From Lachnospiraceae bacterium 10-1 (GTDB lineage Bacteria > Bacillota > Clostridia > Lachnospirales > Lachnospiraceae), in contig KE159822.1 of NCBI GenBank assembly GCA_000403495.2, positions 62,001 to 126,000 of the forward strand: 64,000 nt of DNA, read 5' to 3'. This document shows, piece after piece, positions 7,448 through 60,521 of the stretch (position 1 is the first letter of the stretch; the number at the start of each line of letters is the position of its first letter). The notes under the pieces were generated by a model. That model saw only the letters and a program-made list of their open reading frames with translations. It did not search any database and had not been told where the DNA came from. A program made the translations under genes and the position numbers.

Positions 7448-7653
7448 AGTAGTAAAAACCTCCAATTTCTACTACGTTTTTACTACGTTTGACGGCTTCA
7501 ACTTGCCACATTTTGCCCCGTTTTGCTCATTCTGTGATTTTTTTAACAATTATCTTTGAAAAAGTAAATCTCGCAAAACGTGCCAAAACACGGCAAATCA
7601 ACGCATTTTAGGAGGAACTTTTATTATGATTAAGATACTTTTCGTCTGCCACG
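7448..7653. other. right arm and att core of a lost element (left edge of element A)
   Basis: Contains AGTAGTAAAAAC at 7448 and CTACTACGTTTTTACTACG at 7469-7487, followed by a shared stretch and the core TTCGTCTGCCACG at 7641-7653. The same layout is found at 43506-43711. Because this arm matches the right end of element B, it is best read as the right end of a further, mostly deleted element rather than the native phosphatase promoter. Confidence 0.7.
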
Positions 7654-7712
7654 ACAATATCTTGAAGTATTCCGAAAAAGTCTGTAAATTCAATGATTTC
7701 ACGGCAAAATAA
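7626..7712 (+). pseudogene. phosphatase 5' remnant at att site 1
   Basis: ATG after AGGAGG, then MIKILFVCH, the first nine residues of the tyrosine phosphatase at 60066. The frame then runs into element A sequence and stops after 28 residues. The signature Cys is present but the Arg of the C-x5-R loop is lost. It has a good ribosome binding site, so a short chimeric peptide could be made. It marks the left attachment site of element A. Confidence 0.75.
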
Positions 7713-7781
7713 GGCGCTTACTACACCATTTTTGGAAGAGCCTTGAAATGACCTTATTGATAAATAAATCTGTTCATAAAG

Positions 7782-7813
7782 TGGCAGTTTTCTTCATGGA
7801 AAGGGAACTGCCA
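7782..7813. terminator. hairpin, probable terminator
   Basis: Perfect 8-bp stem TGGCAGTT/AACTGCCA with a 16-nt loop between the att-site peptide and the antitoxin gene. The following T-run is weak, so it may end transcription coming from the left or act on both strands. Confidence 0.45.
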
Positions 7814-7910
7814 TTTGCCTTAAAAAAATCAACTACATTTTTGCATAATACATAGTGATTTAATGAAGAAAGATTTTTAACAGTGGTTGTTTTTTTTAGA
7901 ATAGTAGAGT

Positions 7911-7954
7911 ACAATATGGATAATGATAAAATTATGATAAAGTATGGATAAGGA
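7911..7954 (+). promoter_or_regulatory. probable promoter/operator of the Phd-RelE operon
   Basis: A -10-like TACAAT at about 7910 is followed by two copies of TATGGATAA (about 7915 and 7943) separated by repeated ATGATAAA words. Paired repeats just ahead of a Phd/YefM gene fit autorepression by the antitoxin-toxin complex. Inference from position and repetition only. Confidence 0.4.
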
Positions 7955-7964
7955 GTGAACGCTT

Positions 7965-8225
7965 ATGTTACAGATTAGACCTGTTTCAGATTTGAGAAAT
8001 AAGTTTCCTGATATTGAGAAAATCGTAAATGCGGGTGAACCGGTATATTTAACAAAAAATGGATATGGAGCAATGGTGGTGCTTAGTCTTGAAGAATATT
8101 CAAAGTTGACGGATGGCGTTGAAGCTGCATTAGATAAAGCAGATAGGTTTGCGGCGGAAAACGTTACACGAATGAGCCATGAGGAAGTTTTCGGAGGACT
8201 ACGGAGGAAGATAAATGTTCAGTAA
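7965..8225 (+). CDS. Phd/YefM-family antitoxin
   Basis: 86 residues. The N-terminal Phd/YefM DNA-binding fold is recognisable (IRPVSDLRNKFPDIEKIVNAGEPVYLTKNG, then MVVLSLEEYSKL). The acidic, flexible C-terminus would bind and block the toxin. A strong AAGGAG lies ahead of the ATG. The stop overlaps the toxin start by 11 nt, so the two are translationally coupled, and such antitoxins usually repress their own promoter. As the first intact genes of element A, the pair probably stabilises it. Confidence 0.88.
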   Translation: MLQIRPVSDLRNKFPDIEKIVNAGEPVYLTKNGYGAMVVLSLEEYSKLTDGVEAALDKADRFAAENVTRMSHEEVFGGLRRKINVQ

Positions 8226-8544
8226 AAAGTACAGATTGAGCTATCTGCCACTTTTTTATGATGACCTTAATGAAAAAGTTACCTATATTGCGGAGAAATT
8301 GAAGAATCCCAAAGCAGCAAATGACTTATTGGATAAGGTAGAGTCTGCTATTATAGAGAGGCTTCCGATGGCTGAATCTTTTGAACCATATCATTCTGCT
8401 CGGGAGCGTAGATATTCTTATTATCGTATTTATGTGGATAATTATATTATTTACTATGTAGTGATTGATGATGATCCGAAAGACTTGGTTATGGAAATTA
8501 GAAGGTTTCTTTATAATGGGCAGAATCGGGACAACATGGTGTAA
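8215..8544 (+). CDS. RelE/ParE-family toxin
   Basis: 109 residues of the ParE/RelE fold: LPLFYDDLNEKVTYIAEKLKNPKAANDLLDKV at the N-terminus, then RRYSYYRIYVDNYIIYYVVIDD and the terminal VMEIRRFLYNGQ. RelE members cleave mRNA on the ribosome and ParE members poison gyrase; the sequence does not settle which. Both the pairing with Phd/YefM and the overlap of the two genes are typical of type II toxin-antitoxin modules. Confidence 0.85.
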   Translation: MFSKKYRLSYLPLFYDDLNEKVTYIAEKLKNPKAANDLLDKVESAIIERLPMAESFEPYHSARERRYSYYRIYVDNYIIYYVVIDDDPKDLVMEIRRFLYNGQNRDNMV

Positions 8545-8576
8545 TAATAATTAGGCAGTGAAAAATAATCATTGAT

Positions 8577-8873
8577 TTGCAAAGAGTAAGCGAACAATTA
8601 ACACATTTCTTTACAGGAATAGATGTTGTTATAGGTAACATGGAGAAGAAAGCATTGCAAGCACGAAATTTTTCTGCGCATGGTTCATTTGGTGGAAGTA
8701 ATATTGATTACCGAGAACAATATGTGATAAGTCAGGTATATGAATGTATACTTGTTAGAGTGGTTTTAAAACTACTAAAATATGATGGCAATTACATAGA
8801 CTACGGAACACTTGGATATCCCGAAAAGAATATAAATTGTCCTAGTGGAGATGCAAATATTGAAAATCTATAG
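8577..8873 (+). pseudogene. fragment, possibly HEPN-like C-terminal part
   Basis: An open frame of about 98 residues beginning at a TTG without a convincing ribosome binding site. It contains ALQARNFSAHGSF and a helical region EQYVISQVYECILVRVVLKLLKYDG. The R-N-x-x-x-H pattern resembles the R-x4-6-H motif of HEPN domains, as in ApeA-like proteins, but this is weak. It is probably the tail of a longer gene that lost its 5' end next to the toxin-antitoxin pair. Confidence 0.35.
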
Positions 8874-9001
8874 TAGTAAGACGTTCTGTTTTTTTGTTAT
8901 TTTTATTACTAATAACAAAATTCACCGTTTGTGGATAATGCAAAAATATGCAGAGGGACCTGTAGTCAAAAGATGTGGGCATAGTTGAAAGGGATGATTT
9001 C

Positions 9002-9694
9002 ATGGCAAATATTTTAATTGTAGAAGATGAAAAGAATATGCAAAACATCATCTGTGAATATATGCACAGAGGCGGGCATACCTGTTTTACTGCTGATGAT
9101 GGTGTAGATGCCTTAATGCTATTGAAAAACAATCCTATGGATCTGATGATATTGGATATTATGATGCCGCATCTTGATGGCTTTTCTGTATGTAAAGCGG
9201 CAAGGGAAATGAGCCATCTGCCAATTATCATGCTGACCGCTAAAAGTGATGAAGAAGATAAATTGAAAGGTTACGAATATGGTGTTGATGATTATATGAC
9301 AAAACCGTTTAGCCCGAAAATACTGCTTGCAAAGGCAAACGCATTGCTGCGACGTACATCAGGAACTATCACAGATTTGGGAAACAACACGTTGGGGAAA
9401 ATGATTAGTGCAGGGAAAATATCAGTAAACCCTGTCGCACATAAAGTGTTTTTAGACGGTATGGAAATTACGCTGACTCATAAAGAATATGAGCTGCTGC
9501 ACTTTTTTATGTCTAATCCCGGACAGGTATTTTCAAGGGAACAGCTGTTAAACCGTATTTGGGGATATGACTTTGAGGGGAATACACGGACGGTTGACAC
9601 GCATATCAAAACATTGCGACAAAAATTGGGCAGTGAGGGAAAGTCCATCGTAACTCTGATCCGTTCCGGGTATAAATTTGAGGTGACAAAATGA
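9002..9694 (+). CDS. OmpR-family response regulator
   Basis: 230 residues. The receiver domain (residues 1-~115) has the acidic pair EDEKN, the phospho-acceptor Asp in LMILDIMMPHLDG and the conserved Lys in MTKPF. The C-terminal winged helix (residues ~135-228) ends in TRTVDTHIKTLRQKLG and TLIRSGYKFE. The start MANILIVED at 9002 replaces an upstream in-frame ATG at 8975. It overlaps the kinase gene by 4 nt (ATGA). Its likely target is the ABC exporter operon downstream, now separated from it by the ISL3 element. Confidence 0.9.
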   Translation: MANILIVEDEKNMQNIICEYMHRGGHTCFTADDGVDALMLLKNNPMDLMILDIMMPHLDGFSVCKAAREMSHLPIIMLTAKSDEEDKLKGYEYGVDDYMTKPFSPKILLAKANALLRRTSGTITDLGNNTLGKMISAGKISVNPVAHKVFLDGMEITLTHKEYELLHFFMSNPGQVFSREQLLNRIWGYDFEGNTRTVDTHIKTLRQKLGSEGKSIVTLIRSGYKFEVTK

Positions 9695-10761
9695 AAGAAC
9701 GATTTTCATTCCGCACGGTACGGAAAAAAATAATCATGATTTCAAAGCTTGCAGGTATTGCGTTAATGCTTTCATACTTTATTTCAACGCGGCTGCCTTT
9801 AGAAAAGGATATTTCTTTTTTGCTGTGGGTAATCTTTGTTAGTTTATTGATTATGTTGATAGATTATTTGTTAGGACGTTTTATTTCAGATCCAATCGAT
9901 AACATTTGCGAAATGGCACACAGGGCAGCGGGATTAGACTTTTCCCTGCCTTGTACAATAACATCAAAGGACGAATTTGGAGAGCTTGCAGACAATCTCA
10001 ATAAAATGTCCGATAATTTACAGGAAACGCTTGAAAAACTGGAAAAAGCAAATATCCGGCTTGAAAAAGATGTGCAGCAGGAAAGAAAACTGCTTCGGGA
10101 AAGAAAGGAATTAACAGACCGCCTTTCCCATGAAATGAAAACGCCGATAGGAGTGATCCGTGCCTATGCGGAAGGAATACAGGATGAAACAGATGAAAAG
10201 AAAAGACAGAGATATTCTGAAATCATCATTTCCGAAACAGAGAGAATGGGTATGCTGATTGAAACATTGTTAGATTTGTCTGCATTGGAAAATGGGGCTG
10301 TATCATTGGCACCGGAACGGTTTGATTTCATAGAATTTGTAGAGACGATAGCAGGACGGTTATTGATAGATATGCCGGAAACTGATTTTGAATTACAGTA
10401 TGAACTTCCGGAACATAAAGTATTTGTTTATACAGACAAACAGCGTATGGAGCAGGTCATAGACAACTTGATTATCAACGCAAAAAAGAATGTATCTCCA
10501 AAAGGGATTTTACGACTATCATTGATCGAACAAGACAATATGCTTCATTTTTCCATTTATAATCAAGGTGCTTCTATACCGGCGGAAAAGCTGCCTAAAA
10601 TATGGGATAAGTTCTACCGTGATAAAAATGCGAAATACAATGGTTCAGGATTAGGTCTTGCCATTGTCGCACAAATTTTATCCATGCAAGATTTAGAATA
10701 CGGAGCAGAAAATTTAACAGATGGCATCCGGTTTTTCTTTTCTATTCCTATCATAAAATGA
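9691..10761 (+). CDS. sensor histidine kinase (HAMP-HisKA-HATPase)
   Basis: 356 residues. Two adjacent membrane segments (about residues 13-30 and 38-57) with almost no extracellular loop are followed by a HAMP linker, a coiled coil, the H-box RLSHEMKTPIGV, an N-box DNLIINAKKN, a phenylalanine box KFYRD and the G2 box GSGLGLAIV. The tiny sensing loop is typical of kinases that sense within the membrane, often through an ABC transporter and cell-wall-active peptides (BceS/LanK types). It is co-translated with the preceding regulator. Confidence 0.9.
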   Translation: MKERFSFRTVRKKIIMISKLAGIALMLSYFISTRLPLEKDISFLLWVIFVSLLIMLIDYLLGRFISDPIDNICEMAHRAAGLDFSLPCTITSKDEFGELADNLNKMSDNLQETLEKLEKANIRLEKDVQQERKLLRERKELTDRLSHEMKTPIGVIRAYAEGIQDETDEKKRQRYSEIIISETERMGMLIETLLDLSALENGAVSLAPERFDFIEFVETIAGRLLIDMPETDFELQYELPEHKVFVYTDKQRMEQVIDNLIINAKKNVSPKGILRLSLIEQDNMLHFSIYNQGASIPAEKLPKIWDKFYRDKNAKYNGSGLGLAIVAQILSMQDLEYGAENLTDGIRFFFSIPIIK

Positions 10762-10771
10762 ATCCTTTGGT

Positions 10772-10820
10772 GAGAATGCAAAGCATTCTCATAATCGAGT
10801 GTGCAGGCACTCGATTTTTT
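10772..10820 (+). terminator. double hairpin terminator interrupted by ISL3 insertion
   Basis: A first hairpin GAGAATGC-AAA-GCATTCTC (10772-10790) is followed by CGAGTG...CACTCG (10796-10813) and a T-run. The T-run is the 8-bp target copied by the ISL3 element, so the insertion landed in the terminator tail. Confidence 0.75.
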
Positions 10821-12452
10821 GGCTCTTTGTCAAGTTAGTTGAATAACCTGTTTTATTATGTTATCATAAAATGGGTGAATGATATGGAATTAAATGAACT
10901 ATTAAAAGAACTGGATACAAATTTAGTTATACGAAAAATAGAAAAATCTGACAAAACACTATATTTATATTGTGATATTGATTGTATGATAGTCAAATGT
11001 AAATATTGCGGCACGGAAAGTCATTCGGTTCATAGTAAATATACCAGAACTATTTCCGATCTTCCAATACAGAATTACCAGGTAAAATTAATTATTACCG
11101 TACCCAAGTTTTTTTGTACAAATGAAAAATGCTCCCATAAGACGTTCGCTTATCCAATCCCCTTTGCGGACAAGAATTCATTAAGAACAAATCGGCTGGA
11201 TGATTATATCTATCAAATAGGTATGAAAAGCAGCTCTTTAGATGCGGAAAAACAGATTTCTGGCAGCCACGTATCTGTCTCTAATAATACGATTCTGAGA
11301 ATTATTAAAAAAAAGCAGTCCCTGTCATCAATTATGAGGTGAAAAATATATCCATAGATGATTTTTCGCATTGCAAACGAAAACTATATTTTTCTATCCT
11401 GGTTGACAATGATACCAGAAAAAGGCTGGAAGTGGTTTCTTCCAGACAACAGCCGGAAGTGGTGGAAATCCTTAGAAAGTTTAAGAATGTAGAAACAGTT
11501 ACAAGAGATTTTTCAAGGACTTATAAAGCTGCCATAAGTGAAGCCCTGCCAAACGCGAAACAGATTGTGGACAGATTCCATATATTAAAAAATTTAACGG
11601 AAGATATACTGGAATATCTGAAACGCAGGATGAAAGACAAGGTTAGGATCGCAGATCTGTCACCTGCTCCGATATCGGAAAAAGAAGTATTAAATATACG
11701 TGAACGCAGGAAAATAGAAACGGGTTTGAGAAAATGGGAGGTAATTAAAGAAGCCCAGAGGTTAAAAAGAGCTGGTAAAAATAATACGGAAATAGCAAAA
11801 ACACTTCAGATAGCCCGTCCTACAGTTATAAGATATCTGAGTATGACAAAACCTCCCATTGATTCCAGACCATGCAAACTGGATCCATACATACCAAGAA
11901 TCAAAGAACTACTTTTAAGCGGATATGGGTATACGGAAATATTCAACCAGATCAAAGAAGAAGGATATACAGGCCAGATTTCCTTGTATAACAGTAAAAT
12001 GAAAGGAATCCGCTGGGAAACGAAACATCGGGTTCATTATTTAAAAAGAAGTGACATAAAAAGGCTGTTATATGTACCACTTGAAGAAATCCCAGACGGA
12101 CAAAAGCGGAGAGAGATAGAATATTACCTGAAAGGACAAACAGAATTGGAACAGGTACTAAAACTTGTGTCTGATTTTAAAATTCTCCTGTCAGGGAAAG
12201 ATGAAACCGAACTGGACAGCTGGTAAAAAGAGCAGAAATCCTCCAAATCACAGAAATTAACAGCTTCCTGAAACTGATTCGGTCGGATCTGGAAGCTGTT
12301 AAAAACGCAATAAAATACGATTACAGTAATGGCCCTGCCGAAGGGCATAATAATAAGATAAAAGTAATAAAAAGACAGATGTATGGCAGATGTAAATTTG
12401 ATCTTCTTCGTTTAAAAGTATTGTGTTAATTCAACTAACTTGACAAAGAGCC
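10821..12452 (+). mobile_element. ISL3-family insertion sequence
   Basis: 1632 bp with terminal inverted repeats beginning GGCTCTTTGTCAAGTTAGTT at both ends, and flanked by an 8-bp direct repeat GATTTTTT (10813-10820 and 12453-12460). That target duplication length and the transposase match the ISL3 family. The clean duplication says it inserted here and has not been rearranged, although its transposase is now broken. Confidence 0.93.
10884..12429 (+). pseudogene. ISL3 transposase, two frameshifts
   Basis: Three segments in different frames make up one DDE transposase. Part 1 (10884-~11330) has the zinc-finger region CKYCGTESHSVHSKY...CTNEKCSHKTF and an HTH. Part 2 (~11318-~12225) has the first Asp in ISIDDFSHCKRK, the second in QIVDRFHILKN and an internal HTH. 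Part 3 (~12222-12429) has the Glu in GPAEGHNNKIKVIKRQMYGR. The frame is lost near 11330 (INYEVK reads across in the other frame) and again near 12222. All three catalytic residues survive but on separate frames, so the enzyme is inactive. Confidence 0.88.
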
Positions 12453-12637
12453 GATTTTTTTTACACTAATTTCACAGAGACCACACTTCAATTTCAACTC
12501 TTTTTTTTATCTTATCTACATACACGGCCGCAATGTGAAAAATCCTGTATGACAGTTTTTTGCACAGGAATTTAGCCGCATTGCGACATGCGGTCGGTGC
12601 AAGTAAACCTTTAACAACTGACAAGGAGGAATGATGT

Positions 12638-12790
12638 ATGTTTTTAGGAACCCCGTGGTACTTGTGGATAATAATTGCAGTAGTGTTGGTAATTTCTGTC
12701 CCTTTCAAGATAAAGTTTATGAAATGGTGGAATAAACACCAGCAGGAACAGAAAGACAGCAGTCTGGGAAAGTGGGGCAATGACGAATGA
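12638..12790 (+). CDS. small single-span membrane protein, coupled to ABC gene
   Basis: 50 residues: MFLGTPWYLWIIIAVVLVIS, one hydrophobic span, then a charged tail (KFMKWWNKHQQEQKD). AAGGAGG lies just ahead of the start, and the stop overlaps the start of the ABC ATPase gene by 4 nt, which means translational coupling. No family is recognised. The position suggests a small partner or a leader that sets the translation level of the transporter. It is too short for usual gene callers and easily overlooked. Confidence 0.65.
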   Translation: MFLGTPWYLWIIIAVVLVISVPFKIKFMKWWNKHQQEQKDSSLGKWGNDE

Positions 12791-13635
12791 TTGAAGTTAA
12801 AAATTTGACTTTTTCATACGGAAGGGATAAGCAGGCATTACACGGCTTAAATTTTACGGTAGGGAATGGAGAAATTTTTGGCTTTTTGGGACCGAACGGT
12901 TCCGGGAAATCAACGACACAAAAAATCCTCACTGGTATTTTGAAAGGGCATGGCGGTTATGCGTCATTGTTCGGACAGGATATTTCTACAGCGCATACAC
13001 AGGATCTTTATAGGAAAATAGGCGTCTTGTTTGAATTTCCCTATCTGTATGCGAATTTAAGTGCAGTTGACAATCTGAAATATTTTTCCTCTTTTTATCC
13101 GGTAAAGCAGCTCAGGGATATTGGGGAGATTTTAGAAAAGTTGGAGTTTAAGGCTGATTTTATGAAAAAACCTGTTTCGTCATATTCAAAAGGTATGAGG
13201 CAGCGTGTCAGTATGGCAAGGGCGCTGATCAGCAGTCCTGAACTATTATTTTTGGATGAACCAACCAGCGGTCTTGACCCTTCCGGCGCTGTTTTGTTCC
13301 GCAAGATTATAGAAGAAGAACGAAAGAAGGGGACAACTGTATTTTTAACCACACATAATATGCTGGATGCAGATTTATTATGCGACAGGGTAGCTTTTAT
13401 GACTAATGGAAATATTGTCGCATTAGACACGCCGAAAAGATTAAAAGAACAAAACAGCAATCACCGTGTACGGATAGATTACCTTTATCAGGGCAGGTGT
13501 GAGGAAAAAGTAATGGAGATGCCAGAATTAGAAAGAGGTATTCCTTTCCGGCATGATGAAATTATCAGTATCCATTCAGAAGAACCAACTTTAGAGGATA
13601 TATTTATCCAATATACAGGAAGGGGGCTGTCCTGA
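12787..13635 (+). CDS. ABC transporter ATP-binding protein
   Basis: 282 residues. Walker A GPNGSGKST (about 36-44), Q-loop region, signature motif YSKGMRQRVS, Walker B LLFLDEPTSGLDP, and H-loop TTHNM. The C-terminal ~80 residues form an accessory domain like those of peptide-resistance and efflux ATPases (BcrA/CcmA type). It powers the two following ABC-2 permeases. Overlaps the small membrane protein at its start and abuts the permease at its end, so the four genes form one operon, probably controlled by the two-component system upstream of the ISL3 element. Confidence 0.9.
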   Translation: MIEVKNLTFSYGRDKQALHGLNFTVGNGEIFGFLGPNGSGKSTTQKILTGILKGHGGYASLFGQDISTAHTQDLYRKIGVLFEFPYLYANLSAVDNLKYFSSFYPVKQLRDIGEILEKLEFKADFMKKPVSSYSKGMRQRVSMARALISSPELLFLDEPTSGLDPSGAVLFRKIIEEERKKGTTVFLTTHNMLDADLLCDRVAFMTNGNIVALDTPKRLKEQNSNHRVRIDYLYQGRCEEKVMEMPELERGIPFRHDEIISIHSEEPTLEDIFIQYTGRGLS

Positions 13636-14627
13636 TGTGGAATTTCTGCTCTCTATTCAAAAATGACTGCCAAATGATGTTAGCCGGAAAATTTTTTCTC
13701 GTTGCTTTTGGTTCACTGATGATTTATACGTTGTTTATCAACTTTGGTTATGTCAATTTTATGAATGCCGAACTCTACAATGTGTATCTGTTTGATCCGA
13801 AGGGAACACAGCAGGGAATCTCCGAACTGATTTATCCGGTAACATCGTTAGAAGAATTAAATATGGCTCTTTCTACGGATGCAAATGGTGTTGGAATAGA
13901 TGCCAGTTCCGGTACGCCGGATATTGTTTTTTATTTTGGAAGTGAAAAGGCTGACAATCATAGGACTGACTATGCATTGTCGCTTCTTCGACAAGGCAGT
14001 CAGTATACTGCTCAAATCGTAGGGGAAAATACACCGGAACTAAAACAACGAAAAGAAATGTCTTGCGAATTGTTGTTTATAGAAATCATTGCCGTTGGTT
14101 TCTTGGGGATTGCCGCGGTATTATTTAAAGAAAAGCAAATGGGAGTGATCCGTGTCCATGCGGTCCTGCCATTTCATAAGAACTTGTTTATCGTATCAAA
14201 AATAATGGTTTTCCTGTTATCTGATTTGATTTTTGCAGCATTGATGACTGTATTAAATGTAGGATTTCACGAGGCCGCTGGTATTTTACCTGACGTATTG
14301 GTGCAGACAACAATTTTATCATTGATTATGGCGCTTATGGGATTTGGATGCACCATGCTGCTAAAGGATTTCAGACAGTTTAGTCTTGCCTATCTGGTAA
14401 TTGCTATTTTTGCGGCAACGCCCGTATTTTTGTCGGCAAATACCTCTGTTAAAATGGCATGGATTGGCTGGCACCCATTTTATCATGTTTATATGGGGCT
14501 TAAAAACGCCTACTTTGGTATGCCTGTCACAAATCCTGTTTATTACCTGTTTTTCGCTTGTGGGATTGCCATTCTGTTTCAGATCGTCCAAAAAGCATTT
14601 CACAAAGAAATGGGAAAGGAAGGGTGA
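13635..14627 (+). CDS. ABC-2 type permease
   Basis: 330 residues. One membrane segment lies near residues 17-38, followed by a ~110-residue extracellular or variable region and then five or more spans from about residue 145. The start overlaps the ATPase stop by one base. The arrangement of one N-terminal span, a large loop and a C-terminal membrane block is that of ABC-2 exporters. With the next gene it would form the heterodimeric channel. The substrate is unknown; a peptide or drug is likely given the two-component partner. Confidence 0.8.
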   Translation: MWNFCSLFKNDCQMMLAGKFFLVAFGSLMIYTLFINFGYVNFMNAELYNVYLFDPKGTQQGISELIYPVTSLEELNMALSTDANGVGIDASSGTPDIVFYFGSEKADNHRTDYALSLLRQGSQYTAQIVGENTPELKQRKEMSCELLFIEIIAVGFLGIAAVLFKEKQMGVIRVHAVLPFHKNLFIVSKIMVFLLSDLIFAALMTVLNVGFHEAAGILPDVLVQTTILSLIMALMGFGCTMLLKDFRQFSLAYLVIAIFAATPVFLSANTSVKMAWIGWHPFYHVYMGLKNAYFGMPVTNPVYYLFFACGIAILFQIVQKAFHKEMGKEG

Positions 14628-14629
14628 TT

Positions 14630-15643: not shown

Positions 15644-15753
15644 GGATTTTCAAGCAAAAGCTTTGAGGTTTTTGCAAAGGGGGCTAGGGGGACAATTCCC
15701 CTTATGCAAGCCAATTTTTGCAGATATTCCACAGGAAAAATCTGTGAAAATTC

Positions 15754-16952: not shown

Positions 16953-17009
16953 GCGTTCGTTGCATATCGTCATATCAAGGCTCTTTCCACTACGGAAAGG
17001 AGTTTGAAA

Positions 17010-51521: not shown

Positions 51522-51523
51522 TT

Positions 51524-52774: not shown

Positions 52775-52785
52775 ACTTTATGGTC

Positions 52786-52817
52786 ATTTCGTGCAATTTA
52801 TAGTCACTTGGTGCAAT
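52786..52817 (+). promoter_or_regulatory. LytTR-type paired site ahead of cargo cluster
   Basis: ATTTCGTGCAAT (52786) and ACTTGGTGCAAT (52806), start-to-start 20 bp, just after the kinase stop and 93 bp ahead of the gene at 52910. Same position as the pair at 27535. Confidence 0.65.
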
Positions 52818-52909
52818 CGCGGTTTGAAATGCGGGCGCATCTGCCGATGGATTTTATGAAACGGGATATTTTCAGAAAAAGAAAAATTATAAAAACGGAG
52901 GTATGCGAT

Positions 52910-53545: not shown

Positions 53546-53563
53546 TCTTTACACCGTATTCCG
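53530..53563. repeat. 34-bp repeat, copy 1 (partner 54774-54807)
   Basis: Begins inside the last codons (LDIQV) of the gene at 52910 and extends past its stop. The copy at 54774 differs at three positions. Confidence 0.7.
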
Positions 53564-53624
53564 GCCGATGCAGGCGTCCCGGAATTATTGCGGTTCATAT
53601 CATAAAATTTAGGAGGATAAGAAA

Positions 53625-54701
53625 ATGTCAATGAATGTTAATCAGGATTACAGTCAATTTTTTGTGGGAACGGAGCAGTTAAAAAGCTACGGCTCCAATC
53701 CGGCTGCAAAGAAGGATACCTTGGTAAAATACAGGTTCAACACCACGGACGAACATGGCAATAAGGTTATGGACAAAATGAGCCGGGAAGAAACCTTGCA
53801 GGCCATGAAGGACATCCGTTCGCAATACGGCGATGATGCGATCGTGGAGTTTTCCGGGGACGGAATGGCGGCGCTGGTGGAGAGCAGGAAAAGCGGCAAT
53901 GGCGCTGACCTTGATAAAATCATGGCCAGGACGCCGGAACAGAGGGCTGTCCCGGAGGATATGATAACACGCCCTGAAGGCACATACCGGATAGTTTCCG
54001 CAGGTGATGAGGCCAGCACCCATGTAAGCTGGCATGATACCCTGATGGAGAAGGCTCCCGATGTGTGCAGTGAGCTGGATGACCTGATGCAGAATATCCT
54101 TGACCATGCGCTTAACCACAGCGGTGATGGCGAAAAATTCGGTGCAAGGTTCGTGGAGCTGGTCAAAAAAGCGGAAAGTGCTGTCTCGGCATATGATGCA
54201 AAAAAGGGGAGCGCCGGGGATATCGCAGTTGATGAAGCGGGAAAGAAAGCCACAGCCGGGGAAGCAGGGCTGTCGGAAAAAGCGCAGGCGCTTTTGAAAA
54301 GACTGAGGGAAACCTACGGGGACATGGATTTCTTTGTGGCAGATTTCGGCAAGGGGGACAATGCGAAAGATATCCTCTCAAAAGCGGGCAGGGAGGTTTC
54401 CGTCATACTTACTGTGGAAGAAATTGAAAAAATGGCTTCCGATGGAAAGTATGAGAAAGAGTACATGGAGAGGGTGCAGGGCGCACGCCGTATGTCGGAG
54501 CGGATCAACAGGGAATACGGCACCACATCCGCGTCCGGCGGAGTGGGCAAAATCGGTATTACCTTCAATGAGAACGGGACAGCCGCCTTTTTTGCCGAGC
54601 GTAATAAGCAGGCAGGGCAGACGATGGTGGTACAGGCAGACAGCATAGAAGAACTGATAGGGCGGCTCAAAGAGGCAGACAGGGATAAGGCGGCGGAGTA
54701 A
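53625..54701 (+). CDS. unknown protein beginning MSMNVN (DUF6033-like)
   Basis: 358 residues, soluble. AGGAGG precedes the start. N-terminus MSMNVNQDYSQFFVG matches the start of the protein at 27671. The C-terminal part (DMDFFVADFGKGDNAKDILS, VSVILTVEEIEKMASDGKYEKEYMERV, GKIGITFNENGTAAFFAER) forms a compact alpha/beta module that I associate, without certainty, with DUF6033-type proteins of gut Clostridia. The middle is low in complexity (KKGSAGDIAVDEAGKKATAG), like a linker. It shares the LytTR-linked operon. Confidence 0.65.
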   Translation: MSMNVNQDYSQFFVGTEQLKSYGSNPAAKKDTLVKYRFNTTDEHGNKVMDKMSREETLQAMKDIRSQYGDDAIVEFSGDGMAALVESRKSGNGADLDKIMARTPEQRAVPEDMITRPEGTYRIVSAGDEASTHVSWHDTLMEKAPDVCSELDDLMQNILDHALNHSGDGEKFGARFVELVKKAESAVSAYDAKKGSAGDIAVDEAGKKATAGEAGLSEKAQALLKRLRETYGDMDFFVADFGKGDNAKDILSKAGREVSVILTVEEIEKMASDGKYEKEYMERVQGARRMSERINREYGTTSASGGVGKIGITFNENGTAAFFAERNKQAGQTMVVQADSIEELIGRLKEADRDKAAE

Positions 54702-54773
54702 TTTGGAGGGCGTACTGTATTTCATTACATATGGTGCGAATGAAGTATGCCTTTGATATTTATGCAGCACACT

Positions 54774-54836
54774 GGATATACAGATATAACCTTTACACCC
54801 TATTCCGCAGAGGCGCATAATGCTTTGCCTCTGCGG
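54774..54836. repeat. paralogue tail scrap and hairpin
   Basis: 34-bp copy of the 53530 repeat, still reading LDIQI-stop, followed by a hairpin CCGCAGAGGC/GCCTCTGCGG (54805-54836). The 240-bp gap 54702-54943 holds no gene. It looks like the end of a deleted relative of the gene at 52910. Confidence 0.6.
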
Positions 54837-54943
54837 TCTGCCCGGAGGCGAGGCAATGAACCGCTCGGACTTATTGCGAGGGAGCGGATGCGGCTCTGAA
54901 CGACAGAGGGGCTGCAATAAAAAATGATGGAGGATATTTAAAG

Positions 54944-55441
54944 ATGAGTGTAAATGGAATAGGTACAGCGGGATATCCGCTGACAGGATATACGGCAAGG
55001 AAAACGGGAAGAAGTGCAGAGTCCGGAACGGTGGGATTTATGGAAGCGGTGGAAGATAAGGCGGCGCAGGGCAGAGCAGCCGATCAGGATGAAAACGCCT
55101 TTGAGATGGTCGGACCCAATGCCCCGCAGGAAGTGAAGGATGCGTGGATGGATGCGGCGAAAGAAGTAAATGCGAATGGCATGGGAATCCGGGGCAACGG
55201 GATGATGAGCCACATATCGCAGATGATGGTGCAGCGGCTTAATAAACAGCTTAAGGGCGAGACGGAGAATTTTGACATCCTTGGAAGCACGGTGGAATCT
55301 GCGATTCGGGCAACGAAAGAAGCGCTGTACGATCTGGAGCATCCAAGGGTATATACGCCCAGGAGCATAGAGGTCCAGCAGGCCCGTATCAAAGAAGGGG
55401 AATTTTACAGGGCGTTTTTGGAGAAACTGGAACGGTTATAG
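54944..55441 (+). CDS. unknown protein beginning MSVNGIGT
   Basis: 165 residues, no signal peptide. TGGAGGATA precedes the start. N-terminus MSVNGIGTAGYPLTGYTARK, then an acidic helical region and a Met-rich helix (NGMGIRGNGMMSHISQMMVQRLNKQL), ending in VQQARIKEGEFYRAFLEKLERL. The N-terminal pattern recalls the MSMNVN proteins. Function unknown. A short intergenic repeat starts directly at its stop. Confidence 0.6.
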   Translation: MSVNGIGTAGYPLTGYTARKTGRSAESGTVGFMEAVEDKAAQGRAADQDENAFEMVGPNAPQEVKDAWMDAAKEVNANGMGIRGNGMMSHISQMMVQRLNKQLKGETENFDILGSTVESAIRATKEALYDLEHPRVYTPRSIEVQQARIKEGEFYRAFLEKLERL

Positions 55442-55510
55442 GACGTAAATCGCCCATAAGCCATAGCCGGACAAGGCAGGGCGGACATCCCCGGTGTTCC
55501 TGCAGATTAG
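55441..55510. repeat. intergenic repeat, copy 1 (partner 55785-55849)
   Basis: Starts at the stop of the previous gene. Shares GGACG, ATAAGCCA(T/C)AGCC, ACAAGGCAGG and ATCCCCGGTGTTCC with the copy at 55785. The two copies flank the small gene at 55543. Confidence 0.7.
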
Positions 55511-55542
55511 TGAATATAATTGTGATAAGAGAGGTATTTGGG

Positions 55543-55803
55543 ATGTTAAAAAAGCTGAACCAAATTACAAATATAATAATCGGTTCTTTTGTAGGAGTTT
55601 TCATTGGATGTGGAATATATGTATTTTGGGATTATAAAAAACACCCTGATTTATATGCTATACAATCAGCACCGTGGTACACAAGTATTTTTGTTTATGG
55701 CATAGTTATGCTAATTTTTGTGACAGTGGCAGTTATTGCGAAGCTGATCATCCGAAAAAAGATGAAAGAGGGAATAAACTCAACGGACGCATATAGCCAA
55801 TAA
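55543..55803 (+). CDS. small two-span membrane protein
   Basis: 86 residues from the ATG at 55543. Spans at about residues 11-32 and 50-73, with a basic C-terminus (KLIIRKKMKEG). No family recognised. Its last codons lie inside the second copy of the intergenic repeat, so the gene plus repeat behaves like a unit. Confidence 0.6.
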   Translation: MLKKLNQITNIIIGSFVGVFIGCGIYVFWDYKKHPDLYAIQSAPWYTSIFVYGIVMLIFVTVAVIAKLIIRKKMKEGINSTDAYSQ

Positions 55804-55849
55804 GCCACAGCCCAACAAGGCAGGTATCCCCGGTGTTCCGGCGGATTGG
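55785..55849. repeat. intergenic repeat, copy 2
   Basis: Partner of 55441-55510; overlaps the 3' end of the gene at 55543 and ends about 100 bp before the next start. Confidence 0.7.
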
Positions 55850-55952
55850 GGAACTGGAGGGCAGGGAGGGAAGTAGGAATAAGCTGCTCAAACTTATAAT
55901 GAAGGGTATGAGTGTAGCTCTGAAAAGTGGATTAAAGATAATTGGAGGAATT

Positions 55953-56420
55953 ATGAATAATACTGTTTTGGAATTTGAATGTGTCGGTATGGATAATGGA
56001 GGGAAATTCCCAATCGAATATACAGGGCGGGGGCAGGACATATCGCCGGAATTTATAATTAAGAACCTATCACCAAATGCGGAAACTCTCGCTGTTATAT
56101 TGGAAGATTTATCACACCCGATTAAGGACTTTACGCATTGGATTATCTGGAACATTCCTGCCACTGACAGAATAAAGAAAAATATTCCTGCTGGCAAGGC
56201 TGTGCCAATTTTTGGGAATGCCCGCCAGGGAATAGGATATGGCTTTCACCGTTATGCGGGGCCGAAGCCACCGAAAGGGAAAAAGCATACATACCGTTTT
56301 ACCATATATTCCTTAGATTGTGAAATAAATATGAGTGCCAACTCTATGAAAAGAATTTTTTTGAAAAAGGCTGAAAAGCATATCATTCAAAAAGGTAGTA
56401 TTGTTGGTGAGTTTGAATAA
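55953..56420 (+). CDS. YbhB/YbcL-type PEBP-like protein
   Basis: 155 residues from the ATG at 55953 after TGGAGG. The phosphatidylethanolamine-binding fold is clear: GKFPIEYTGRGQDISPEF, AVILEDLSHPIKDFTHWIIWNIP and GYHRYAGPKPPKGKKHTYRF (here GFHRYAGPKPP), which form the ligand pocket. Bacterial members are soluble proteins of unknown task, sometimes kinase inhibitors by analogy. The only recognisable family in this part of the cluster. Confidence 0.87.
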   Translation: MNNTVLEFECVGMDNGGKFPIEYTGRGQDISPEFIIKNLSPNAETLAVILEDLSHPIKDFTHWIIWNIPATDRIKKNIPAGKAVPIFGNARQGIGYGFHRYAGPKPPKGKKHTYRFTIYSLDCEINMSANSMKRIFLKKAEKHIIQKGSIVGEFE

Positions 56421-56507
56421 AGAACCTGACATTTCAAATGAGGTGTGAATGGACAAAAGCCGTAGAGGGCAGGCATCCACAATTTTTGACCGAGCAGGAG
56501 GATTGAA

Positions 56508-57038
56508 ATGGATATAACAGGAATAGCAAAAAGTCATCAAGCGGGCATCCCAAAGCCATCATCCAAGAAGGACTGGAAGCTGTCCGATTCCCTCCGGGAG
56601 CAGATTGCCGGATACGCCAGGGAGGATGCGGCGCAGGGCGTCTATATGGGGAATAAGTTCCTCGCCCTGCGGAAAAGCGAGGTCGCCAAAGTGGCGCCGG
56701 ACAGGGCGGCGCTGATGGGGAAGGTCGGTCAGGAAATGGCGGACATGAAAACGATACGGGAGGCTGACAGGCGGTGGCTGTGCCTTCTGTTCGGGGAGCC
56801 GTATGAGGCAGAGTTCCAGTCCGAGGGGACGGGCTCCGCTGTCCATGTGTATGACGGGAACGGTGATGAGGTACTGACCTACACGGCGGGCGTGGGCTGG
56901 CATGAGAAGGAGTCGAAGGCGGAGACGCAGGTACACGGGGCTTTGAAGGCTGCCTACTATGATGCGTACCATGCGGCAAGGCAGGAGATAAATGCCGGGG
57001 CGGTGGAAATGCAGGGTGGCTTTGACGCGAGGGCGTGA
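56508..57038 (+). CDS. unknown protein of the LytTR-linked cluster
   Basis: 176 residues, soluble. GCAGGAGG precedes the start. N-terminus MDITGIAKSHQAGIPKPSSK is polar like those of its neighbours. A helical body (SLREQIAGYAREDAAQG, RAALMGKVGQEMADM) and a Trp-rich end (HVYDGNGDEVLTYTAGVGWH) follow. No known family. G+C-rich compared with the surrounding element. Confidence 0.6.
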   Translation: MDITGIAKSHQAGIPKPSSKKDWKLSDSLREQIAGYAREDAAQGVYMGNKFLALRKSEVAKVAPDRAALMGKVGQEMADMKTIREADRRWLCLLFGEPYEAEFQSEGTGSAVHVYDGNGDEVLTYTAGVGWHEKESKAETQVHGALKAAYYDAYHAARQEINAGAVEMQGGFDARA

Positions 57039-57048
57039 GGAGGCAAAT

Positions 57049-57255
57049 GTGAAAAAGAAACTTATTATTGTTTTTGCAGTGATAGCGGCGGTTCTGTTAC
57101 TGATTCCGGTCAGAAAGGTTTATGAGGATGGCGGGACGCAGACTTATACATCCCTGACCTATAAGGTCATTGTGTGGAAGCAGATAGATGGGAAATCGGG
57201 GACGGAGTTATATCTTTTTCCGAATAACTTCCACCAGTTAGATTATTACGAATGA
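57049..57255 (+). CDS. small protein with N-terminal anchor
   Basis: 68 residues from a GTG preceded by GAGGAGG. MKKKLIIVFAVIAAVLLLIP is a membrane anchor or signal; the rest (YEDGGTQTYTSLTYKVIVWKQ) would lie outside the cell. Only 10 nt after the previous gene, so co-transcribed. This TYTSLTYKVIxW pattern is common in short Clostridia membrane proteins of unknown function. Confidence 0.65.
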   Translation: MKKKLIIVFAVIAAVLLLIPVRKVYEDGGTQTYTSLTYKVIVWKQIDGKSGTELYLFPNNFHQLDYYE

Positions 57256-57354
57256 GAAATAGCGGCAGTGCGGCATGAAGGGAGAGGCGTTTATTGGGAG
57301 ATACCAATATGCGCCTCTGCATTTTTAGGAGAGGAGGTGGTAGGTATCCGGAGG

Positions 57355-57504
57355 ATGAGATGCTCGAACAGTTTATGTAAGAAACGTGTCTGCGACATTT
57401 GGGAGAACCGTTTCGGGGTGATTGTGATAGAGCTGAAATGCCCGCACTGCGGCGAGGTGGTACGGGTGTATTGGAAACCGAGGCTGAAAGGTAAATATAC
57501 ATAG
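57355..57504 (+). CDS. Com-like zinc-ribbon protein
   Basis: 49 residues: MRCSNSLCKKRVCDIWENRFGVIVIELKCPHCGEVVRVYW. The four Cys in CxxxxC...CxxC form a zinc ribbon of the phage Com type (CxxCxKxL...IKCPxCG), which in phage Mu activates translation of mom. The start is uncertain because GAGGAGGTGG lies 14 nt upstream of this ATG. Probably a phage-derived piece. Confidence 0.55.
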   Translation: MRCSNSLCKKRVCDIWENRFGVIVIELKCPHCGEVVRVYWKPRLKGKYT

Positions 57505-57774
57505 ATGAAAAGAACGGCGGGGGGATATCCTGCTGTTTTTGCTTTTACGGATTAAAGCGTTCCTTTTATGGGCATACTTATGCTATCAATGGAAAAATTT
57601 GGTAATTCCATTGTACGCAAAACTGAATAAAAAGTACCGAGCGAGTGGGACCGCATTGCGTCGAGTCACGAATGGCCGGAGTAAAGCTAGTGGGTTTTAA
57701 TGTGTGTAGTTTTTAGATAGCTTTCCCTGGCCATTCTCTGCCATTTTTTCAAAGCCAGTCCCACATTTAAATTT
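57505..57774. other. intergenic region, no gene seen
   Basis: 270 bp with no coding signal. The phrase TTAAAGCGTTCCT occurs at about 57552 and again at 57773, where it forms the left arm of the hairpin ahead of the sigma-like gene. TGGCC-type inverted words (about 57672 and 57732) may pair. Confidence 0.45.
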
Positions 57775-57818
57775 AAAGCGTTCCTAACTTTACGAAGCCG
57801 TAAAGGAAGGAACGCTTT
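57775..57818 (+). promoter_or_regulatory. hairpin covering the ribosome site of the sigma-like gene
   Basis: AAAGCGTTCC/GGAACGCTTT outer stem and CTTTAC/GTAAAG inner stem; the right arm contains the AAGGAAGG ribosome site and ends directly at the ATG at 57819. Folding would block translation, so a ribosome, protein or RNA must open it. Confidence 0.65.
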
Positions 57819-58286
57819 ATGTCTGTTAGGAAAATCACAGTCAAGTCAGGAAACGAAGAATCCACAATGAATGTTACGGAAGAAGAATACAGGAATTACT
57901 ACCGCCCGTGGTGGCAGCAGAAAAAGCATGAGCAACGGAACCGTGAGGCAATGGAGCAGAACGGTTATACAGAAGAATCCTACGAGGAATGGAAAGAGAA
58001 CGATATGCGGACGGAGCTTTTTGCGGAGAGCATGGAGGAACTGGCGGAAAAGCGGATGCTGCTTGGTGTCCTGCAGGACGCTATGGATTCCCTCCTGCCG
58101 GAAGAACGGGAGCTTGCCATGAAGGTGTTCGGGGAGGAAATGAGTGTTTATAAATATGCGCGGGTGACGGGAGGCAACAGGCGGACGCTTGATTTCCGCA
58201 AAAACAAGGTCATGGAGAAACTGCGCCATTTTTTTGAATATTCTAACGTTTCGGAGCCACCGTTTTATCGCTTGAGAGCCATTTGA
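57819..58286 (+). CDS. sigma-70-like region-4 protein of the Tn916-type module
   Basis: 155 residues. An N-terminal acidic region (VTEEEYRNYYRPWWQQKKHEQRNREA) is followed by a sigma region-4-like HTH (AMDSLLPEERELAMKVFGEEMSVYKYARVTGGNRRTLDFRKNKVMEKL). It matches the short sigma-like regulators that precede xis-int in Tn916-like elements. Expected to activate element genes; its own translation seems hairpin-controlled. Confidence 0.8.
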   Translation: MSVRKITVKSGNEESTMNVTEEEYRNYYRPWWQQKKHEQRNREAMEQNGYTEESYEEWKENDMRTELFAESMEELAEKRMLLGVLQDAMDSLLPEERELAMKVFGEEMSVYKYARVTGGNRRTLDFRKNKVMEKLRHFFEYSNVSEPPFYRLRAI

Positions 58287-58315
58287 TTTTGGTATTCTAA
58301 TGCTTGAGAGCCACC
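58239..58315. repeat. 23-bp direct repeats ahead of xis
   Basis: TATTCTAA-rich 23-bp words at 58239 and 58293 agree at 19 positions and end in GAGCCACC; GCTTGAGAGCCA also occurs at 58270 and 58302. The first overlaps the end of the sigma-like gene. They may be Xis or integrase accessory sites. Confidence 0.5.
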
Positions 58316-58390
58316 ACAACAGTACCTTTTTATATAAATTTTATGTGAATTGGAGCGTGATTCATTATAGAAACAACAGAAGCATTAAAA

Positions 58391-58582
58391 ATGCCTTGGT
58401 GGAACAAGTATACATTATCGGTTCAGGAAGCCGCAGAATATTTTGGTTTTAGTGATAAAAAGGTTAGAAAGATTATAGATGAACATGAAACGGACAATTT
58501 TGTCTTATGGAATGGTACAAGACCGCGAATTAAAAGACAGCTATTTGAGAAATTTGTTGACGAAAAATTAAATTCTATATAG
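58391..58582 (+). CDS. xis: Tn916-type excisionase of element C
   Basis: 63 residues: LSVQEAAEYFGFSDKKVRKIIDE and FVLWNGTRPRIKRQLFEKFVDEKL, the winged-helix excisionase pattern. No strong ribosome site precedes the ATG at 58391; translation might begin slightly upstream. 110 bp ahead of int. Confidence 0.85.
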   Translation: MPWWNKYTLSVQEAAEYFGFSDKKVRKIIDEHETDNFVLWNGTRPRIKRQLFEKFVDEKLNSI

Positions 58583-58692
58583 TAGCTTCCCAATTTGATT
58601 ATAAATGATTGCTAATAGATTTTGGGGGTTAAGTATGGTATATTATTAATTATCATACCGAGACTCTCTGGACATGAAAGGAGAGGAAATAT

Positions 58693-59889
58693 TTGTCAGA
58701 AGTAAGGAAAGATAGTAAAGGTCGTAAACTAATGACAGGGGAGAGTCAGGATAAAGACGGGAGATACAGATATAAATATTGTGATTCTTTTGGGAATAGA
58801 AAGTCTGTATATAGTTGGAGATTAACAGAATCCGATTCATATCCGAAAGGAAAGCGCAAGGATATTTCCCTGAGAGAAAAAGAAAAGAACATTCAAAAAG
58901 AGTTAAACGATGACATTATCCCCGATGGTGGGAATATGACAGTATTGGAACTGGTGGAGAAATATATCAATCAAAAAAGAGGCGTTAAGCATAATACGCA
59001 AGCCAATTACAATTTTGTTATCAATGTCATCAAGAAAGAACCGTTCGGAGCAAAGCGGATTGATAAGGTGAAATTATCAGATGCCAGGGAGTGGCTGATT
59101 AAATTACAGGATGATGGCAGAGGATATAGCAGCATACATAGCATCCGGGGAGTAGTCAGACCAGCTTTTCAGATGGCAATGGATGATGATCTTATCCGTA
59201 AGAATCCGTTTGAATTCCAGTTAGCAACGGTAGTAGTAAACGATAGTGTGACTAGGGAAGCTATTACACGGAAACAGGAGCGGGAGTTTCTAAGATTCAT
59301 CAAAGAAGATAAGCATTTCTGCAAATATTATGATGGAATTTATATCTTATTCAAAACTGGACTTAGGGTTTCTGAATTTTGTGGACTGACAAAAGAAGAT
59401 ATTGAGTTTGATAAGGAAAGAATCAAAGTAGACCATCAATTACAGAGAAAACGTGATATGGAATATGTGATTGAAACACCTAAGACAGAAAAAGGTGTGA
59501 GATATGTTCCCATGAATGAAGATGTTGCAGAGTGCTTCAAGCGTATCATTGAAAACAGAAAGAAACCGAAAATTGAACCAATGATTGATGGCAGGGCAGG
59601 ATTTCTATTTCTGGATAAGAATGATATGCCTATGGTGGCTTTGCATTGGGAGAAATATTTTCAGCATATCAGAGAGAAATATAATAGTATATATAAGGTG
59701 CAAATGCCTGTTATAACACCACATGTATGCAGACATACATTCTGTAGCAACATGGCGAAGTCGGGCATGAATCCAAAGACACTACAATACATTATGGGAC
59801 ATTCTGATATTGGCGTTACATTGAACACATATACACATTTACAGTTTGATGATGCCAAAGAAGAGATGAAGAAAGTCTGTAATAAGTAG
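58693..59889 (+). CDS. int: tyrosine recombinase/integrase of element C
   Basis: 398 residues from a TTG start preceded by GGAGAGGAAATA. Arm-binding domain KGRKLMTGESQDKDGRYRYKY, core-binding domain (KRGVKHNTQANYNFVINVI), catalytic Arg in FKTGLRVSEFCGLT, HVCRHTFCSN (H-x-x-R), GHSDIGVTLNTYTH with the nucleophile Tyr. Intact. Closer to the broken integrase of B than to that of A. The right att site lies 192 bp downstream. Because A, B and C share one core, it could act on several junctions. Confidence 0.94.
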   Translation: MSEVRKDSKGRKLMTGESQDKDGRYRYKYCDSFGNRKSVYSWRLTESDSYPKGKRKDISLREKEKNIQKELNDDIIPDGGNMTVLELVEKYINQKRGVKHNTQANYNFVINVIKKEPFGAKRIDKVKLSDAREWLIKLQDDGRGYSSIHSIRGVVRPAFQMAMDDDLIRKNPFEFQLATVVVNDSVTREAITRKQEREFLRFIKEDKHFCKYYDGIYILFKTGLRVSEFCGLTKEDIEFDKERIKVDHQLQRKRDMEYVIETPKTEKGVRYVPMNEDVAECFKRIIENRKKPKIEPMIDGRAGFLFLDKNDMPMVALHWEKYFQHIREKYNSIYKVQMPVITPHVCRHTFCSNMAKSGMNPKTLQYIMGHSDIGVTLNTYTHLQFDDAKEEMKKVCNK

Positions 59890-60065
59890 TGGGCTAAAAA
59901 TTTCAATTTAGCCCAGAATTTAGCCCAAACGAAGGAAAAGTTATGCAAAGTTATTCCAAGTTATACATAAAAAGGTGAACAAACACACTATCATAAAAAT
60001 ATAGCAAAACTGTTGAAAGTGCCTAAAATACAGCAAAATCAAGCATTTACGGAGGTTTTAGCAAC

Positions 60066-60521
60066 ATGATAAAAATACTTTTCGTCTGCCACGGCAACAT
60101 CTGCCGCAGCACAATGGCCGAGAGCATCATGACGCATATAGTAAAGCAGGCAGGCTTGGAAGCTGATTTCCAAATCGCTTCCGCTGCAACCAGCAGAGAA
60201 GAGATTGGAAACAGCCCCCATTACGGAACCGTTGGTAAGCTGCGGGAAATGGGAATTCCGTTGGTGCCTCATAAGGCAGTTCAAATGACGAAAGAGGATT
60301 ATGCATTTTACGATTATCTGATCGGCATGGATGACTGGAATCTGAAAAATATGTGGAGAATTGCAGATGGTGATCCTTTGCATAAAATATACAAGCTGTT
60401 AGAATTTGCCGGAAGTACCAGAGACATTGCTGATCCCTGGTATACCGGAAATTTTGATGTGACCTACAAGGATATTATAGAAGGTTGTCAGGCTTTGCTA
60501 AATAGTCTAAAGTCCAATTAA
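60066..60521 (+). CDS. low-molecular-weight protein tyrosine phosphatase, intact target gene
   Basis: 151 residues. The P-loop C-x5-R is CHGNICRS (residues 8-15), and the catalytic acid loop DIADPWYTG lies near residue 118. Such enzymes dephosphorylate protein tyrosine (some also reduce arsenate). This is the only complete copy of the gene whose first codons are repeated at 7626, 18360 and 43684. The ribosome site ACGGAGG and the first five codons now come from element C, so the natural promoter has been replaced. The att core is codons 6-10. Confidence 0.93.
   Translation: MIKILFVCHGNICRSTMAESIMTHIVKQAGLEADFQIASAATSREEIGNSPHYGTVGKLREMGIPLVPHKAVQMTKEDYAFYDYLIGMDDWNLKNMWRIADGDPLHKIYKLLEFAGSTRDIADPWYTGNFDVTYKDIIEGCQALLNSLKSN

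Follow-up and report, generated by a model that had tools for sequence, protein, structure and literature searches.

Organization of the locus

We analysed a 64,000-nucleotide stretch of the Lachnospiraceae bacterium 10-1 genome (assembly GCA_000403495.2, contig KE159822.1, positions 62,001 to 126,000 of the forward strand; hereafter the window), in which three adjoining segments, A, B and C, lie in front of a gene for a low-molecular-weight protein tyrosine phosphatase (LMW-PTP). The segments are bounded by a core repeat, TTCGTCTGCCACG, that occurs exactly at 7641, 18375, 43699 and 60081, as a preliminary description of this DNA had claimed; these four are the only exact copies in the whole genome (24 contigs, 4,565,484 bp). 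With up to two mismatches allowed, the window contained five matches against 0.78 expected, a number reached by 0 of 100 shuffles. Each core begins 15 nt downstream of an ATG (7626, 18360, 43684 and 60066) whose first codons were correctly described as MIKIL, the full encoded peptide being MIKILFVCH, and the core-to-core distances of 10,734, 25,324 and 16,382 bp agree with the spacings of 10.7, 25.3 and 16.4 kb given earlier. An intact LMW-PTP is reached only from the copy at 60066, while the other three diverge from the gene within a few codons. The core encodes F-V-C-H, including the cysteine of the phosphate-binding loop (P-loop; C-H-G-N-I-C-R, read from the sequence), which is the nucleophile of LMW-PTPs. 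This gene is the single LMW-PTP match in the genome at E up to 1e-20.

A right-arm profile trained on 41 other loci, scanned over the window at E up to 1, found exactly four arms, ending at 7653, 18387, 43711 and 60093. From left to right, their E-values were 2.2e-16, 5e-15, 1.7e-18 and 3.2e-29 with the coding bases of the profile and 2e-6, 9e-4, 1e-8 and 3e-19 without them. The same profile found no fifth arm in the window or in the 60 kb to its left (contig C23, 2001-62000). The features that make up the array are as follows (att, attachment site; RBS, ribosome-binding site; ABC, ATP-binding cassette; HTH, helix-turn-helix; ORF, open reading frame; xis, excisionase gene; int, integrase gene).

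6294-7210: transposase near the left cut of the remnant (Pfam matches; labelled IS3-type by eye)
7220-7438, + strand: C-terminal ORF remnant left of the oldest arm, an open frame ending at 7438; possible cargo of a fourth element
7444-7653, + strand: right arm, RBS, ATG and core of an apparent older fourth element (arm-profile match at 7452-7653, E 2.2e-16)
7626-7653, + strand: att copy 1 (ATG and core), followed by the left end of A
7641-18374, + strand: segment A (10.7 kb), with a Phd/YefM-ParE pair, two-component system, ISL3 transposase, ABC transporter, HTH regulator, xis and int
16575-16766, + strand: xis of A (PF09035 Tn916-Xis, E 7.9e-22)
17007-18197, + strand: int A, Tn916-type tyrosine integrase (PF00589 and PF02920; 53% identical to int C)
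18212-18387, + strand: right arm, ATG and core of A, att copy 2 (arm profile)
18375-43698, + strand: segment B (25.3 kb), a mosaic of left end, transposase remnant, ABC/two-component genes, LytTR module, pst-phoU-phoPR operon, broken int, defence insert and a 349-aa ORF
43518-43711, + strand: right arm, ATG and core of B, att copy 3 (arm profile)
43699-60080, + strand: segment C (16.4 kb), with an MNT/HepT pair, two-component and FtsX/ABC genes, LytTR/GHKL module, DUF6033 and other ORFs, a sigma-like ORF, xis and int
58388-58567, + strand: xis of C (38% identical to xis A, E 4.6e-12)
58693-59889, + strand: int C, Tn916-type tyrosine integrase (PF00589 E 6.8e-34, PF02920 E 2.4e-29)
59899-60093, + strand: right arm, RBS, ATG and core of C, att copy 4 (attR at the phosphatase; arm profile)
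60066-60521, + strand: regenerated LMW-PTP gene, the target, 151 aa (PF01451 E 2.4e-32)

The xis/int module proposed for the right of every segment is present in A, where both genes match Pfam families, and in C, where int matches Pfam and xis is recognized by its similarity to xis A. Segment B had been described as carrying a broken module; its int is indeed broken, in two ways rather than one, and a search at E up to 1 returned no xis match within B. Int A and int C each combine the PF00589 catalytic domain with the PF02920 N-terminal domain of Tn916-type tyrosine integrases, which int B retains only in pieces. Segments A and C can accordingly be classed as site-specific elements at the 5' end of the LMW-PTP gene, while B has the att ends and a broken integrase.

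The older element suspected at the left gained support from the arm match at 7452-7653. Since the tail of an ORF and a transposase lie to its left, the leftmost arm looks like the right end of an older, truncated element; over 210 nt it shares 80% identity with the right arm of B (43502-43711). The 7220-7438 remnant had no relative among the compared loci except its own locus. A common native left neighbour was not apparent either: among the 14 loci inspected out of 26, hardly any upstream ORF besides int had a relative upstream of another locus. In the left flank, a GH3-type glycosidase gene (550-2833) is apparently split by a frameshift, as judged by eye, and a cluster resembling a van-type two-component system, D-Ala-D-X ligase and racemase, also by eye, lies left of the window and outside the array (L378, 11366-16387; C23, about 53.4-58.4 kb).

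The same site in related genomes

In our genus set of 37 genomes, LMW-PTP was present in 32 (34 matches). We examined 33 of these 34 genes, leaving out G027:C2, and 30 remained once G011, G023 and G012, too short upstream, were set aside. Codons 8-10 read CHG in 26 of the 30, and all 26 had an arm match upstream; the arm abutted the ATG in 24 and ended at least 130 nt away in G033 and G005. None of the four non-CHG genes (CTG in G004 and G060, CLG in G020 and G010) had a full arm, and a partial match in G060 scored 26.8 bits, close to the weakest CHG case (G007, 26.4 bits). The genus profile includes 28 coding bases, so part of each score is common to any such gene, and the species are related, so the counts are not independent.

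A wider set of 120 family genomes from 120 genera gave LMW-PTP in 84 (86 matches). We read 83 of the 86 genes, leaving out two partial matches and the window's own, and 75 had at least 160 nt upstream. An arm or a related integrase lay upstream of 35 of 62 CHG genes versus 2 of the 11 non-His genes that could be read (P 0.024; another two were unreadable); arms were called here with a profile lacking the coding bases, at E below 1e-4, and some named loci used to train it may come from the same genomes. The 27 unoccupied CHG genes indicate that plain sites exist.

We also scanned named species with eight integrases and kept the best 79 of a larger number of loci; their record titles name Lachnospiraceae, Oscillospiraceae and others, with many metagenome bins. 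Among these 79, an LMW-PTP gene lay 166-268 nt past int in 67 (with an internal stop in L168), the start peptide followed by other DNA was found in nine, as at internal junctions within a tandem, and three had neither, one of them where the contig ends. Another ten intervals with a core at either end, 4.7-10.9 kb long, contained 81 ORFs, with nine integrase matches and five to the Tn916-Xis family. The matches listed for these intervals also included a MobA/MobL relaxase (L171), Rep_OBD (L200) and two FtsK-like proteins, and those listed by PADLOC included type I restriction-modification, AbiE, Mads and TIR models, family matches that mark candidate systems. L171, with its relaxase, can be classed as an integrative mobilizable element (IME) at the same kind of site, and L200 has an FtsK-like protein together with Rep_OBD.

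Integrases and element-host junctions

Integrases and arms appear to travel together, and phosphatase genes hardly follow them. Across 64 loci (63 named loci out of the 67, with the window and L034 added and one removed; L136, L168, L201 and L202 were excluded beforehand), Mantel tests gave r 0.51 for integrase versus arm similarity (P 0.005, the smallest possible with 199 permutations), r 0.05 for integrase versus phosphatase body (P 0.08) and r 0.17 for arm versus body (P 0.01). Twelve integrase pairs were at least 99% identical; the accompanying phosphatase bodies were only 42-61% identical in 11 of them and 93% identical in the twelfth (L206/L209). A quick tree of 48 chosen rows placed 39 of 40 site-linked integrases on one side of a branch with 98% support in the Shimodaira-Hasegawa-like approximate likelihood ratio test (SH-aLRT). 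Int A fell outside this group in a placement that is not settled, alongside five integrases from other sites, and the integrases of A, B (first part only) and C occupied three tree positions in different sublineages.

Phage contigs provided a close view of the junctions. A search of IMG/VR returned 63 loci, and among the 54 inspected a match to the start peptide lay within 4 kb past int in 22, many of the others ending soon past int. Two contigs, L316 and L317, share a 3,894-nt stretch at 99.95% identity that runs through arm, ATG and core. Past the core, L317 continues into an intact 153-aa phosphatase, and L316 into a phage-type left end (a 15-residue peptide) that is 75% identical in part to the left end of L318. 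Terminase, portal and minor head genes identify L317 and L318 as prophages. We regard L316 and L317, one attP-like and the other attR-like, as the closest approach to attP and attR of a single element. With arms that bring an RBS and an ATG, and with the L316/L317 junctions, these elements can be classed among those that replace the 5' end of a gene, as at dusA. Comparison of sequences documents the arms, cores and junctions, transfer between species, and phage junctions resembling attP and attR.

Column-wise mapping of the crossover over the 64 att sites gave a soft picture that we did not adopt: association leaned toward the integrase in upstream columns and weakly toward the phosphatase past about +33, and the core carried no information. 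A left-end motif, TTGATTTTAC (up to two mismatches), was found at 10 of 38 left ends versus 127 of 1900 shuffles, and its reverse complement in 33 of 41 right arms versus 367 of 2050 shuffles. The left-end motif marks only some element types, and neither orientation is used in the argument.

These comparisons bear on whether the repeats could instead stem from segmental duplication or rearrangement of the phosphatase start together with chromosomal DNA. Some copying between segments did occur, as the 77-98% identity of the LytTR modules of B and C attests, and the pst block of B is present in another species as well. Outside the LytTR module, however, the interiors of A, B and C differ; an integrase ends next to an arm and core in each segment, in B as fragments; and the layout recurs in 67 of the best 79 loci, with similarity breaking at the core. 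The L316/L317 pair and the near-identical integrases beside diverged phosphatases largely refute duplication, which we consider highly improbable.

Origin of the array

Because the layout recurs in dozens of genomes, similarity blocks stop at the core and attP- and attR-like phage junctions exist, we favour a reading in which the LMW-PTP start is the attachment site of Tn916-type tyrosine integrases and tandem accretion there gave the array (probability roughly 0.93). In this scheme, an element ends just past int in a right arm with an RBS, an ATG and some ten codons that match those at the phosphatase start, and Int would use this attP for recombination with the corresponding codons of the host gene. 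The old host start would then stay at attL, and the gene would run on from the element's copy at attR, restoring a protein with its active-site loop. As attR would retain the whole site, later elements could insert beside the first. At least four insertions would be recorded here, namely the remnant ending at 7653 and then A, B and C. The preliminary description had proposed accretion of related elements at codons 6-10 of a tyrosine phosphatase gene; accretion is upheld, and "related" applies to the integrases and the ends, most interiors being different.

Several observations weigh against this interpretation. The arm of A is the weakest of the four, with E 9e-4 once coding bases are removed, and B is a mosaic that may be two fused elements. 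No gene of the window's left flank matched 40 relative loci (E 1e-10). In L197 and L205, neither the gene nor the start peptide follows int, which is unexplained. The L316 junction could represent two tandem phage copies. Synonymous constraint on TGCCACGGC did not differ significantly between occupied and unoccupied genes (29 of 35 versus 17 of 26, P 0.14). We infer rather than observe current activity of the elements (excision) in this strain, and the same applies to the order of insertion and to expression of the phosphatase by read-through from int.

Gene content and ends of the segments

Gene content was assessed with Pfam on 54 of 55 chosen ORFs of A-C (from 124 ORFs in the window) plus xis A, the out-of-frame ORF at 41894-42304 and shorter ORFs being excluded. 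These 54 ORFs contained no family of relaxases, coupling proteins, mating-pore or type IV secretion system (T4SS) proteins, or phage structural proteins; PHROGs likewise found no phage structural gene among ten unassigned ORFs of the window. We therefore discarded a prophage or integrative and conjugative element (ICE) origin for the segments, as the scanned ORFs hold neither structural genes (terminase, portal and the like) nor genes for mating-pair formation. With no transfer or phage structural gene recognized, the segments look like islands or cis-mobilizable elements (CIMEs), from which int A or int C could still catalyse excision. B fits the structure of a CIME, in which att sites are kept and the element's own recombination and transfer genes are lost, whereas A and C retain int and xis.

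The segments could also be decayed IMEs that retain an origin of transfer (oriT) and are moved by helpers, rather than inert islands. Intact elements at the same site do carry a MobA/MobL relaxase (L171) or an FtsK-like protein with Rep_OBD (L200), and a 98% identical copy of the left end of C occurs in another species. The absence of a relaxase, which would define an IME, and of coupling and T4SS families from the scanned ORFs of A-C speaks against such an origin, no search for oriT having been made. We consider it possible, at somewhat less than even odds.

The ends of the segments have close relatives in several genomes. The left end of B (18360-19175) is 95% identical to G029 (locus L115). 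A different contig of G029 (L114) matches the right end of B (42229-43718) at 94%, and similarity there stops at the core; a match of 88% to G013 (42280-43720) also stops at the core. For C, the left end (43661-44937) matches G021 (L113) at 98%. These matches bear on a scenario of one or two insertions only, in which a ready-made tandem composite was gained in one step. Transfer of a CIME-ICE tandem as a single unit has been described in the part of the literature available to us (PMC5704250). Here, though, the ends of A, B and C find their best matches in different genomes, at 87-98% identity, and the same order was not seen in the relative loci compared, which were often ended by contig ends. 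A one-step gain seems unlikely to us, and separate accretion remains the preferred account.

Segment B, the mosaic, contains the following features.

28250-36130, + strand: pst-pho block, 99.7-99.8% identical to a block in G021
36139-36779, + strand: int B, first part, its gene start missing at the pst-block junction (PF02920 match starts at 33 of 70; similarity to intact relatives from 36138-36139)
36780-41621, + strand: 4,842-bp insert in int B, with Fic-like (SoFic), nSTAND3/Mrr (PDC-S73) and YhcG/DUF1016 (PDC-S02) genes
41622-42251, + strand: int B, second part

The pst-phoU-phoPR operon (29147-35477) contains the genome's only PstA match at E up to 1e-40. This PstA is 100% identical to that of G021, and its best match is 46-50% identical in 14 of the 37 genus genomes. 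The operon seems to have been acquired horizontally; neither core nor arm was found in the 30 kb examined around the G021 block. Intact relatives (L104, L116) align on either side of the insert in int B with a 2-bp overlap, and there is no recombinase among the three listed ORFs of the insert, which looks like a separate insertion of a candidate defence cassette. Because the start of int is lost, the gene is split by the insert and xis was not found, B is very likely unable to excise itself.

In loci with B-lineage integrases (L075, L076, L088 and the window at 42382-43431), extra ORFs lie between int and the arm, forming a second cargo slot adjoining the phosphatase. The LytTR/sensor modules of B (25689-27613) and C (50625-52864) are similar block by block, part of the kinase is missing from the B copy, and more DNA resembling these modules lies on contig C1 at 442-447 kb. 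At the left end of C, just upstream of the MNT/HepT pair, Rfam places a DUF3800-XI RNA (RF02975, 43916-43963); no DUF3800 gene was found among the scanned ORFs of C.

Expression of the restored gene and variation at codon 9

The arms appear equipped for translation of the restored gene. A Shine-Dalgarno-like motif precedes the ATG in 43 of 45 arms versus 317 of 2250 shuffles. By consensus scans, the sole basis of the promoter and terminator results, a promoter-like site with 10 of 12 consensus matches was found in none of the 45 arms, compared with 6.6% of mononucleotide shuffles, and terminator-like hairpins occurred in 1 of 38 gaps between int and the gene, with none on the + strand from int C to the ATG. 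Given the weakness of promoter-like sites in the arms and the scarcity of terminator-like ones between int and the gene, transcription may reach the phosphatase through int. A 10-of-12 promoter-like site on the + strand inside the end of int C (59658-59685) weighs against simple read-through and could drive the phosphatase independently; the region contained 11 such sites against 8.0 expected.

In G033 (L073), the start peptide about 230 nt past the integrase is MIKVLFVCWG, with Trp replacing His, and in G176 (L293) a 44% identical integrase lies beside a CWG phosphatase. It is possible that the G033 and L293 integrases are variants adapted to another codon 9. A more sweeping proposal would make the LMW-PTP start a near-universal docking site of the genus, at which P-loop codons are exchanged, the phosphatase is rewired into the element's operon (almost no promoter- or terminator-like site follows xis-int) and hosts escape by changing codon 9 from His to Thr, Leu or Trp. 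Taken as a whole, we find this proposal doubtful.

Comparison with known systems

A close relative of this machinery is the Tn916 family (PF02920, PF09035), with which it shares Xis and an Int with an arm-binding domain. Tn916 itself is loose in its choice of target. The elements described here use one precise site, and no transfer genes were found in the window segments.

The site is used by islands, mobilizable elements and some temperate phages in gut Clostridia relatives. The literature we searched, outside which lie most subscription journals and preprints, yielded no description of LMW-PTP, or its P-loop codons, as an attachment site. The start of one phosphatase gene may offer a simple handle with which to find and delimit unannotated mobile DNA and defence cargo in metagenomes. 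It also raises the question of what becomes of a signalling enzyme whose first codons and translation start come repeatedly from mobile DNA.

The mechanism itself is already known, both as 5'-end integration at dusA (PMC4482086) and as tandem accretion of CIMEs and IMEs (PMC5704250), in the parts of these sources seen. In the available text on dusA, the island likewise supplies a new 5' end, islands and prophages use the site and the att repeats are semiconserved (PMC4482086). The target differs, as does the reach of the exchange, which extends here to the active-site loop, whereas the affected region of dusA had no residue known in binding, according to the same portions of that paper. They also report putative promoters in dusA islands, whereas our arm scan found none, and the word "tandem" is absent from the paper's text (PMC4482086).

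Streptococcal IMEs with tyrosine integrases, as far as the consulted sections of PMC5357655 go, combine a Rep-type relaxase with an FtsK-like coupling protein, as in L200. The same sections describe rare integration at the 5' or 3' ends of guaA, tatD and ebfC and tandem integration; LMW-PTP is not among the sites they name, and the word "phosphatase" is absent from the paper. A close parallel to the array as a whole is the accretion of ICEs, IMEs and CIMEs, in which newcomers insert in attR beside decayed residents that keep their att sites (PMC5704250, consulted in part). That system differs from ours in target gene and hosts, and at the LMW-PTP site of Lachnospiraceae bacterium 10-1 two of the three segments keep an intact-looking integrase.

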